Source of the DNA: Synechococcus sp. WH 8020
GTDB taxonomy: Bacteria; Cyanobacteriota; Cyanobacteriia; PCC-6307; Cyanobiaceae
NCBI RefSeq assembly: GCF_001040845.1
Contig: NZ_CP011941.1
Location: 639,744-703,743 of the forward strand
DNA: 64,000 nucleotides
Reading direction: 5' to 3'
Part shown: piece after piece, positions 20,915 to 23,016 of the stretch
How positions within the stretch are numbered: position 1 is the stretch's first letter
How the letters are laid out: each line of letters begins with the position of its first letter
Position numbers and translations under genes: made by a program
The notes under the pieces: generated by a model
Told to the model about the DNA's origin: nothing
Databases searched by the model: none
The model's input: only the letters and a program-made list of their open reading frames with translations

Positions 20915-21070
20915 ATGGATCTTCGTCTTGTTGAATTACTTGGTAAGTACCAGGAAGAAGAGCTTGAAGCGATTGAGCGATGGTTTAATCATACGCAGCC
21001 TTTGGCCCTGGAAATGATGGGAAGCATGAAAATTGCAAGAGGAACCATCAAAAGGGAGGAAAAATATTGA
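20915..21070 (+). CDS. Small soluble hypothetical protein
   Basis: 51 residues, charged and probably helical (YQEEELEAIERWF, then ARGTIKREEKY). The amino-acid composition is that of a real soluble protein and unlike a random AT-rich frame. It starts 19 bases after the preceding small ORF. No family is recognised. Confidence 0.45.
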   Translation: MDLRLVELLGKYQEEELEAIERWFNHTQPLALEMMGSMKIARGTIKREEKY

Positions 21071-21319: not shown

Positions 21320-21493
21320 ATGAACAGCTACGTATTAATAGCTATCTTCTTTATTTTGTTGCCTTGTGGCTTTTTAAGTGCGTCATTGGCAGAATCGAAA
21401 AAACAGAAATATTGGATATGGTTGATTGCAGGGTTAGTTTTTGGTCCTATTGGGTTAATTGGCTCTTCTTGCCTTAAGGACAAAAGTTCCTGA
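21320..21493 (+). CDS. Small two-helix membrane protein
   Basis: 57 residues with a helix at about 3-23 (VLIAIFFILLPCGFLSASLA), a short charged linker (ESKKQKYW) and a second helix at about 33-50 (LIAGLVFGPIGLIG), ending LKDKSS. Gly-rich FGPIGL and the hairpin layout are typical of small membrane proteins. It ends 39 bases from the 3' end of the convergent CpcL-like gene. The function is unknown. Confidence 0.5.
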   Translation: MNSYVLIAIFFILLPCGFLSASLAESKKQKYWIWLIAGLVFGPIGLIGSSCLKDKSS

Positions 21494-21532: not shown

Positions 21533-22264
21533 TTAATTGATGGTGAATGTAGATCTAAATATTGCTAATATGATCCAGATCGCAATGCCTGTTGTTGTAG
21601 CGAGTGCAAGTATCCATAATTTTAAAGTCCTTCCGGTTGGCTTTTCATACAGTAGCTTTTCTAATGATGTCTTATTGCTGTAAAGTAAATGATCATTGAT
21701 TGACATCATGAATCGATTTGATATCAGATTTTTCTGCCAATCAATCCCATATCTTGGATATTGTTGATATAGAGGTACTGAGCCTTTTGCTTGCCCCGGC
21801 AGAACACGAGACACTTCGCTAGGTGGAATATCGTAACCAAACCTTTCCATGTACTCGTTACTATCTAGTACATAGTCTATAAAATAGTTAAATCCTTTTT
21901 CTGCAATTATTATTGATAGTGATTGCTTTTCTTCTGCATTATATACTTTTCTTCCAAGCGCTCTTGCAACGACTTGTTCTGCTAATCGATAGTTGTTGTT
22001 GCATTCGACATAGCCTCTACGAAACCGCTCAGACAAAAAAAGTCCTCTCATAAAGTCGCGTACGGTGATTGAATTGTTCCGTAATTGTGATTCGAGATAT
22101 GATTCCCTGTCATTCTCTAAGAGGTGAAAAAATACTTGTTGATAGCAATTCTTGATTGGTTTTTCTTTTTCGTTGTCTGCATTTGTTTCTATGTTTTGAT
22201 TGCTGACTGCTTCAACCCTTGAGTTTTGGGTTGAAACTGTGAAACTTTTTGGAGGAATTGCCAT
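21533..22264 (-). CDS. Phycobilisome rod linker with C-terminal membrane helix (CpcG/CpcL-like)
   Basis: 243 residues. The N-terminus (MAIPPKSFTVSTQNSRV) and the linker domain, about residues 38-165, follow the CpcG pattern: CYQQVFF, YLESQLRNNSITVRDFMRGL, FRRGYVECNNNYR, ARALGRKVYN, and ILP-like RVLPGQAKG. After residue 180 the CpcG core-binding tail is absent; a charged segment leads to a hydrophobic helix at about 214-236 and a short end. This is the architecture of CpcL (CpcG2), which in other cyanobacteria anchors rod-only phycobilisomes in the thylakoid membrane and serves photosystem I. The length (CpcL is about 250) agrees. It is a single gene, away from any phycobilisome cluster in this window. 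Its role here is inference. Confidence 0.85.
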   Translation of the reverse strand: MAIPPKSFTVSTQNSRVEAVSNQNIETNADNEKEKPIKNCYQQVFFHLLENDRESYLESQLRNNSITVRDFMRGLFLSERFRRGYVECNNNYRLAEQVVARALGRKVYNAEEKQSLSIIIAEKGFNYFIDYVLDSNEYMERFGYDIPPSEVSRVLPGQAKGSVPLYQQYPRYGIDWQKNLISNRFMMSINDHLLYSNKTSLEKLLYEKPTGRTLKLWILALATTTGIAIWIILAIFRSTFTIN

Positions 22265-22788
22265 ATTGTTTTAATAATAGTTTCATGCTATGCATTGGCC
22301 TCTCTCTCAAGCTTTTTATTGGTTACAACTCTGCGTATCAATAGAGGCTTTGTGTTGCCTCCGCTTTATCCGGCTTATGGATTATGTAATACTCAATGCT
22401 TTTGTTGATGTGATAGCTATCTGTTAATAGAGACTTTTGTTTTCTGAATAGAATGTTAGATATTCCAATTGATTTGATTGGTTTTGCTTTGCAATAATCT
22501 CATGAATTGTTCTTGGCGTTTTCTTCTGATGATTATATTCAGGCTTGATTGCGCTAATGATTTTAATAACTCATCACGTGAAGGCCGAAGTGTCGGCTTC
22601 ATCCATGCAGTTGCTCAAACCAAAAGCCGGCCAGTTGCCACGAGCTCCACAGAAAAATCGCAAGAAATAACCAGTTCATCCAGGCGGGGCGATCGCGATT
22701 TTCAAACATGAAGTGAGTGATGCAACCCTTTAATTGTGGCGGATCAATCGCTGTAAATCATGAATTCTTTTGAATGCTTGCTGTTGCG
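22265..22788. other. Intergenic region upstream of the CpcL-like gene
   Basis: 524 AT-rich bases that must hold the promoter of the leftward linker gene. The only ORF, 22478-22711 on the + strand, has a mixed composition and no family resemblance, and was not accepted. No terminator or repeat was recognised. Confidence 0.4.
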
Positions 22789-23016
22789 TTACGACTGAAC
22801 GGTTGCCGACGCCCAATCCGCAGTCTGAAGCGACACCTGAGATCCACCTGCCCTTTTGAGATCGTGCATTCCTTCTAGCTGTCGATACACCGCTTTCAAT
22901 TGTCTTTGGATGTGATCGGTGTGTGGCATCGCATCTAAGGTCAACAACGCTTCCTCGAGATGGTGTTTGGCATCAATCAAGAGTCGGCAATCAGTACTTC
23001 CAGGTTCGTAGCTCAT
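22789..23016 (-). CDS. Small hypothetical protein, helical
   Basis: 75 residues, soluble, two predicted helices (LLIDAKHHLEEALLTLDAM and IQRQLKAVYRQLEGMHDL) in a coiled-coil-like layout. The composition is that of a true protein and the gene lies 79 bases downstream of a nuclease-fold gene on the same strand, so it may be the last gene of the glnN transcript. No family is recognised. Confidence 0.6.
   Translation of the reverse strand: MSYEPGSTDCRLLIDAKHHLEEALLTLDAMPHTDHIQRQLKAVYRQLEGMHDLKRAGGSQVSLQTADWASATVQS

Follow-up and report, generated by a model that had tools for sequence, protein, structure and literature searches.

The closest described systems to the gene considered here are the CpcL linkers of Synechocystis PCC 6803 and Anabaena PCC 7120, and the additional cpcG copies of marine Synechococcus. 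Synechocystis CpcL is reported as an antenna of photosystem I (PMC10322944), and Anabaena CpcL is reported to be bound with photosystem I (PMC11165356). In the cryo-EM study of the CpcL rod the transmembrane part of CpcL is not resolved (PMC10322944), so that even there the mode of docking is not seen, and a study in Synechocystis calls direct transfer from phycobilisome to photosystem I not well documented (PMC10702739). A cpcL gene has been named in a Cyanobium strain (PMC13342260), and CpcL in picocyanobacteria is therefore already in print.

For marine Synechococcus, Six et al. 2007 (PMC2246261) describe cpcGI in all 11 strains compared, cpcGII in the rod cluster, and a third copy, cpcGIII, unlinked to other phycobilisome genes, in CC9311, CC9902, BL107 and CC9605, all four of which are of a phycoerythrin-II pigment type. 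By mass spectrometry, CpcGII was not detected in the phycobilisome fractions that they examined, no cpcGIII strain being among these, and the extra phycoerythrin-II linkers of RS9916 and of RCC307 were likewise undetected, for which the authors suggest either no expression or an inherent biochemical property; they also cite an earlier detection of CpcGII in a phycobilisome fraction of WH8102. In BL107, two cpcG genes drop with other phycobilisome genes on filtration (PMC5063861); the passage in question gives no third cpcG of this strain and is thus uninformative on the expression of cpcGIII.

The window analysed here is the whole stretch of 64,000 nucleotides from Synechococcus sp. WH 8020, to which the positions in Table 1 refer. 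A reading of it from the sequence alone had claimed a protein of CpcL-type build, with a CpcG-like N-terminus and linker domain, a hydrophobic helix at about residues 214–236 and no core-binding tail, encoded by a solitary gene in a marine Synechococcus-like genome, and had proposed a pfam00427 profile search and a CpcG/CpcL phylogeny as checks. The gene is an intact open reading frame with an ATG start, its stop codon being 21533–21535. The profile search gives a clear match, of 114.6 bits for the 243-residue protein against a cut-off of 28.7, which bears out the N-terminal half of the claim. Of the NCBIfam models, those of CpcG1–3 align from residue 1 and that of CpcG4 from residue 6, with scores far under their cut-offs.

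Table 1. Features at and around the cpcGIII-like gene (positions in the window)
Feature	Positions	Strand	Basis or remark
cpcGIII-like gene, 243 aa	21533..22264	-	CpcG-type N-terminus, then PF00427 domain and a hydrophobic C-terminal helix
PF00427 linker domain, residues 30-148	21821..22177	-	E 3.9e-33
Predicted membrane helix, residues 216-236	21557..21619	-	hydrophobicity; profile match to CpcGII tails
Small hydrophobic protein of 57 aa, convergent with the gene	21320..21493	+	conserved; hydrophobic by eye
51-aa small protein, conserved neighbour	20915..21070	+	dN/dS 0.02-0.06 in four comparisons
Conserved upstream block TTGATAC-N6-TTGTAACCAATA	22317..22343	-	53 to 79 bases before ATG

Profile searching of the single-contig genome (2.66 Mb) finds 14 PF00427 domains. 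The remaining 13 lie at 1.54–1.73 and 2.62–2.64 Mb, and the nearest is at least 0.88 Mb from the window gene on the contig, or about 0.69 Mb if the contig is circular; the gene is indeed solitary. Among them are a four-domain ApcE at 1.59 Mb (L009, L010, L013, L014), as Six et al. give for CC9311 and RS9916, and a group of linkers at 2.62–2.64 Mb, taken to be the rod cluster, which includes CpcGII. Three linkers stand apart from both, namely a CpcGI-like linker (L008), an MpeF-like linker (L002) and the window gene. The marine Synechococcus-like character of the genome is supported. As to pigment type, judged by linkers, an MpeD-like linker of 560 aa is present together with the MpeF-like one, but an mpeD homologue is found also in a strain lacking phycoerythrin II (PMC2246261). 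The names CpcGI, CpcGII, CpcGIII, MpeF and MpeG were assigned according to where each gene lies, its tail and how well it fits what PMC2246261 describes. On this basis the window gene, being a third cpcG gene and lying apart from the rod cluster, the core genes and cpcGI, fits cpcGIII of Six et al., being matched by pattern through those descriptions. Since a third unlinked copy is already catalogued there, the gene is of a known kind.

The C-terminal segment of the protein is where the build departs from that of CpcGI. The top Kyte–Doolittle 19-mer, residues 218–236, reaches 2.37, whereas the best one ending before residue 205 reaches 0.96, and only 10 of 2000 composition-preserving shuffles of the protein attain 2.37 anywhere. 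A simple additive insertion sum, using approximate scale values, is negative across residues 216–236. The membrane helix was called from hydrophobicity together with tail profile comparison. Synechocystis-type CpcL rows L095 and L096 have comparable tails (2.33 and 2.24), and the claimed CpcL-type build is supported. Over the sequences compared there is a clear gap, from 1.55–3.12 in tailed rows to −0.58 to 0.94 in untailed CpcG and CpcGI rows (maximum 0.94 in 34 CpcG rows and 0.69 in 25 CpcGI rows, one gene appearing twice among the latter as L008 and L182). In the rows fetched, the tail is present in 30/30 CpcGII, 22/22 CpcGIII and 0/25 CpcGI. No core-binding tail was found in CpcGIII, its tail profile matching that of CpcGI at an hhalign probability of 0.07, again as claimed. 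The word ‘hydrophobic’ is absent from the main text of PMC2246261, which does not discuss the tail of cpcGIII.

Taken together, CpcGIII is probably a rod–membrane linker, which would tether rods to the thylakoid without a core through a predicted insertion of its C-terminus. The PF00427 domain is expected in the base hexamer of the rod, which it would fill in the manner of CpcL in the solved structure of its rod. The C-terminal helix would insert into the thylakoid and thus hold the rod without an allophycocyanin core, and energy would then pass to chlorophyll, to photosystem I by analogy with CpcL, which is the least certain step. In other words, we infer membrane insertion, a rod on top and energy delivery to photosystem I from the build of the protein. 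In this regard, the lack of CpcGII in phycobilisome fractions (PMC2246261) is as expected of a membrane-held linker; against this, its single sighting in such a fraction of WH8102 indicates that CpcGII is not strictly in the membrane.

The same genome contains CpcGII, 44% identical to the window protein and of the same build. Hydrophobic tails occur in just three of its nine non-ApcE linker genes, CpcGII (1.85), CpcGIII (2.37) and the MpeF-like linker (1.61), the other six lying between −0.09 and 0.53. The suggestion that the window gene by itself gives the organism its membrane-bound antenna is therefore not supported, for CpcGII already has such a tail; cpcGIII is an extra copy and not the only anchor, and its product is best seen as an accessory protein related to CpcGII, which is more widespread.

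Nineteen residues of Synechocystis CpcL were taken from PMC10322944 for comparison, all of which are matched (19/19) by the Synechocystis-type rows L095 and L096. The window protein keeps R16, S70, Q71, R112, I129, F139, R181 and Y182, and does not keep N55, Q57, Q58, K73 (R here), W127, L136, P137, R163, R169 or R178. Most of the kept residues are equally conserved in untailed CpcG and thus indicate a rod-base linker and not CpcL; R16, R112, R181 and Y182 in particular are near-invariant in every group and so do not discriminate CpcL from CpcG. The bilin contacts N55, Q57 and Q58 are replaced by F, a gap and H, as in the CpcGIII rows generally (F 22/22, gap 22/22, H 21/22), the exact position of the gap at 57 depending on the alignment. 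F at 55 and the gap at 57 are common to CpcGI (one row), CpcGII and CpcGIII. Among the other tailed rows, position 57 is Q in 32/33, the exception being L039 of the protein’s own family, and position 55 is N (25) or H (7) in tailed rows outside the picocyanobacterial group; untailed CpcG rows have S55 and H57 in 34/34. Outside picocyanobacteria, positions 55 and 57 thus give a nearly perfect separation of CpcG-type linkers with a tail from those without one, for the rows used. The distance from the Y-x-Q motif to LESQ is 11 residues in all picocyanobacterial rows that could be parsed (CpcGI 19/25, CpcGII 26/30, CpcGIII 22/22) and 13 in 60/67 other rows, tailed or untailed, six being unparsed and L039 having 11.

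The two-residue-shorter loop, common to CpcGIII and CpcGI, would suit a different reading, in which CpcGIII is a rod-core linker with its hydrophobic helix packed into the allophycocyanin core and not inserted into a membrane. The detection of CpcGII in the WH8102 fraction could also be taken in that sense. This reading nevertheless appears improbable, since the genome already encodes CpcGI, a tail-less rod-core linker with a conserved hydrophilic end, and since the CpcGIII tail equals known CpcL tails in hydrophobicity and has no match to the CpcGI tail.

The descent of the protein was examined in trees built on the linker domain alone (residues 6–180). The first tree omits other linkers (L001–L007, L009, L010, L013, L014), L012 (the same gene as L015), the close copies L021, L022, L048–L050, L052, L057 and L128, the truncated L023 and L046, L040 (in a wrong frame) and the repeats L077–L081. 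In the second, which has 13 CpcGI rows, 24 rows close to retained ones and the long-branched L131 are left out, and L182 replaces L008 (same gene). A single branch sets the 22 CpcGIII rows of the first tree apart from all others (95/77; recovered in 100% of 200 bootstrap trees), and likewise the 15 CpcGIII rows of the second (98/90; 97%). Anabaena CpcL (PDB 9wd5) and the Synechocystis-type CpcL rows L095 and L096 fall in clades other than that of CpcGIII. Placing all 65 tailed rows in a single clade costs 161 log units and is rejected (AU p 3.2e-5). Orthology to Synechocystis or Anabaena CpcL is rejected by the trees, the AU test and the tail profiles; descent from freshwater CpcL does not hold for the proteins compared, the one-clade arrangement being rejected, the tail profiles mismatched and N55, Q57 and Q58 absent. 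The Anabaena and Synechocystis types of CpcL do not themselves share a clade, so that CpcL is not defined by descent, and CpcGIII is CpcL-like by build through a separate lineage. On whether CpcGII and CpcGIII form one clade apart from CpcGI the two trees differ. A branch of the first (one CpcGI row), with support 100/94, unites CpcGII, CpcGIII and L039; in the second CpcGII and CpcGIII do not group, and forcing them together is not rejected (p 0.13). The phylogeny that had been proposed puts CpcGIII in a lineage close to CpcGII and apart from both CpcL types compared.

The tails tell a related story when compared as profiles (hhalign, tails only). Those of CpcGIII and CpcGII match with a probability of 82.6 (E 1e-5) over 38 columns in register, CpcGII and MpeF at 98.4% (E 7e-15), CpcGII and MpeG at 95.9% (E 5e-9), and MpeF and MpeG at 83.5%. 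Directly, the CpcGIII tail matches that of MpeF or MpeG at less than 2%, such that its link to both runs through CpcGII. Picocyanobacterial tails match that of Anabaena CpcL at 0.2–3% and those of Synechocystis-type CpcL at 0.5–7%, with the exception of MpeF at 62%, which may be a hint of a wider relation; for CpcGIII the value is 3% against each. The MpeF tail is present in 15/15 rows, this genome’s own included (hydrophobicity 1.59–2.16), and is weaker in the three MpeG-like matches that were read (1.25, 1.46 and 1.54), two of which lie below the line of 1.5 used elsewhere. In small genomes, called Prochlorococcus-like from their size and single linker, 15/15 of these single linkers have no tail. 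It thus appears that the picocyanobacterial group evolved a membrane tail of its own and set it on several linkers, and what looks like the new element here is this tail as a picocyanobacterial module on CpcGII, CpcGIII and phycoerythrin-II-type linkers.

In the present genome the MpeF-like phycoerythrin-II-type linker (L002, 1282–2184; genome 1543746–1544648, + strand) has a hydrophobic C-terminal tail, which is homologous to the CpcGII tail. Upstream of it lies a gene for cytochrome c-550 (psbV-like, by Pfam). The tables of PMC2246261 give mpeF or mpeG for five of the 11 strains, and mpeZ for exactly these five. No chromatic-acclimation island was recognised beside the MpeF-like gene among the listed reading frames, Pfam having been applied to the upstream neighbour only.

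A match to cpcGIII of at least 231 bits occurs in 24 of 300 genomes of the family (this one included), the next best being 210 bits, and the 24 belong to two genera (11 in g1, 13 in g5); these and the following counts are raw and ignore kinship among genomes. All 24 are within the 50 genomes in which the MpeF-like protein has a match of E ≤ 1e-60, a set that also takes in MpeD-like linkers and is therefore only a rough sign of phycoerythrin II. MpeF-type linkers (>300 bits) are found in 15/300, 14 of which have cpcGIII (exception G034). A second or third CpcG-type match is present in 24/24 CpcGI-bearing genomes, tails having been read for the fetched ones only. No relatives were found in viral contigs. 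A separate observation is a tandem array in G181 (533386–543502; L231, L235, L239), where five identically scoring rod-linker matches follow one another every 2437 bases, a pattern suggestive of the amplification of a phycocyanin operon.

The patchy presence of cpcGIII, together with its low GC content (0.366, GC3 0.32, against 0.492 for the window), might be thought to indicate a decaying duplicate with no present function. Nine other measured CpcGIII genes have GC contents of 0.32–0.45, and CpcGII of this genome has 0.437. Against decay, the gene is under purifying selection: whole-gene dN/dS is 0.127 against the orthologue in G213 (83% identity), 0.131 against G101 and 0.117 against Synechococcus sp. 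AG-686-F08 (L045). The tail is conserved likewise (residues 211–243: 0.10, 0.11 and 0.13, respectively), with noisier values between relatives, namely 0.20 in two pairs, 0.54–0.68 in three pairs with the distant L018, and 0.87 on seven changes for L017–L045; the comparison of the window protein with L018 is saturated in the tail. Moreover, none of the 24 cpcGIII matches has an internal stop (one runs off a contig end), and the block upstream of the gene is conserved. Decay is accordingly very improbable, and the gene is real and apparently functional. An AlphaFold model from a two-row alignment was too poor for use (mean pLDDT 43.8).

The upstream block can be made out in five of the six upstream regions aligned, more weakly in L174, and has one match in the genome at up to three mismatches, as against none for a reversed-pattern control; in seven distant orthologues, the 330 bases examined contain no related pattern. 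The block is probably a promoter or regulator site. The ‘very small membrane ORFs’ reported around the gene are correct in part: the 57-aa frame is hydrophobic by eye and conserved (dN/dS 0.11–0.19 in three comparisons, saturated in a fourth), whereas the 51-aa frame is conserved but not membrane-like by eye; it has no Pfam match, and G101 has two copies. The 57-aa frame scores above 60 bits in eight of 31 genus genomes, six of which have cpcGIII (G693 being outside the family search); G123 has it without cpcGIII and G101 has cpcGIII without it, and a link between the two is no more than suggestive. It lies beside cpcGIII in several genomes, on the opposite side in G156. A 75-aa frame at 22792–23016 (−), also without a Pfam match, is conserved in three relatives at 64 to 68 of 75 residues. 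Shared neighbours otherwise vary. The 75-aa frame and a nuclease are found in G213, L046 and G295, with glutamine synthetase III in addition in the first two; L045 shares PPK2 and the genes preceding it, and G101, besides cpcGIII, only the 51-aa frame. Seven distant orthologues have no window neighbours in common, except for the 57-aa match in G156.

If CpcGIII is a tethered rod linker, it could still dock elsewhere than on photosystem I, to photosystem II, another thylakoid complex or lipid only. The CpcGIII tail is unrelated by profile to CpcL tails and the lineages are separate, such that the identity of the partner is not transferable and may differ. Yet the two known CpcL tails also mismatch each other (5%) and both groups are reported with photosystem I, which means that docking on photosystem I need not conserve tail sequence, and we regard a different partner as unlikely. 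A rod–membrane linker, perhaps serving photosystem I, remains the preferred reading. As a tentative extension, for which the odds are somewhat against, a portable picocyanobacterial membrane-anchor module may have been fused to at least four linkers (CpcGII, CpcGIII, MpeF and MpeG), such that phycoerythrin-II Synechococcus would possess a complete second antenna made of tethered rods, among them phycoerythrin-II rods or hexamers held on the thylakoid without a phycocyanin base, and the linkers missed by Six et al. (CpcGII, and MpeF/MpeG in the two strains tested) would be those that stay in the membrane. A limited search of the literature gave no account of cpcGIII, MpeF or MpeG as membrane-anchored, although one may exist, and no biochemical work on membrane-bound CpcGII or CpcGIII. 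If true, phycoerythrin-II linkers with a membrane tail would represent an antenna attachment not described in the literature so searched. Linkers with their own membrane tail are, moreover, named gene candidates for phycobilisome to photosystem I transfer in marine Synechococcus.

Compared with known systems, CpcGIII shares with Synechocystis PCC 6803 CpcL (CpcG2; PDB 8hfq; PMC10322944) the PF00427 domain, the hydrophobic helix, the absent core-binding tail and some bilin contacts, and differs from it in a loop two residues shorter, in several contact residues that are absent (N55, Q57, Q58, R163, R169, R178 and others), in lineage and in tail profile. Anabaena PCC 7120 CpcL (CpcG3; PDB 9wd5; PMC11165356) has the same build, but is nested among CpcG of its own kind and has a tail profile that does not match. 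Picocyanobacterial CpcGII has a close lineage and a homologous tail, though it sits in the rod cluster in this genome and is more widely spread. A further likeness is to cpcGIII of marine Synechococcus, the genome having cpcGI-like and cpcGII-like genes and a third, unlinked copy; PMC2246261 treats cpcG products as rod-core linkers, whereas here the tail is read as a membrane helix.
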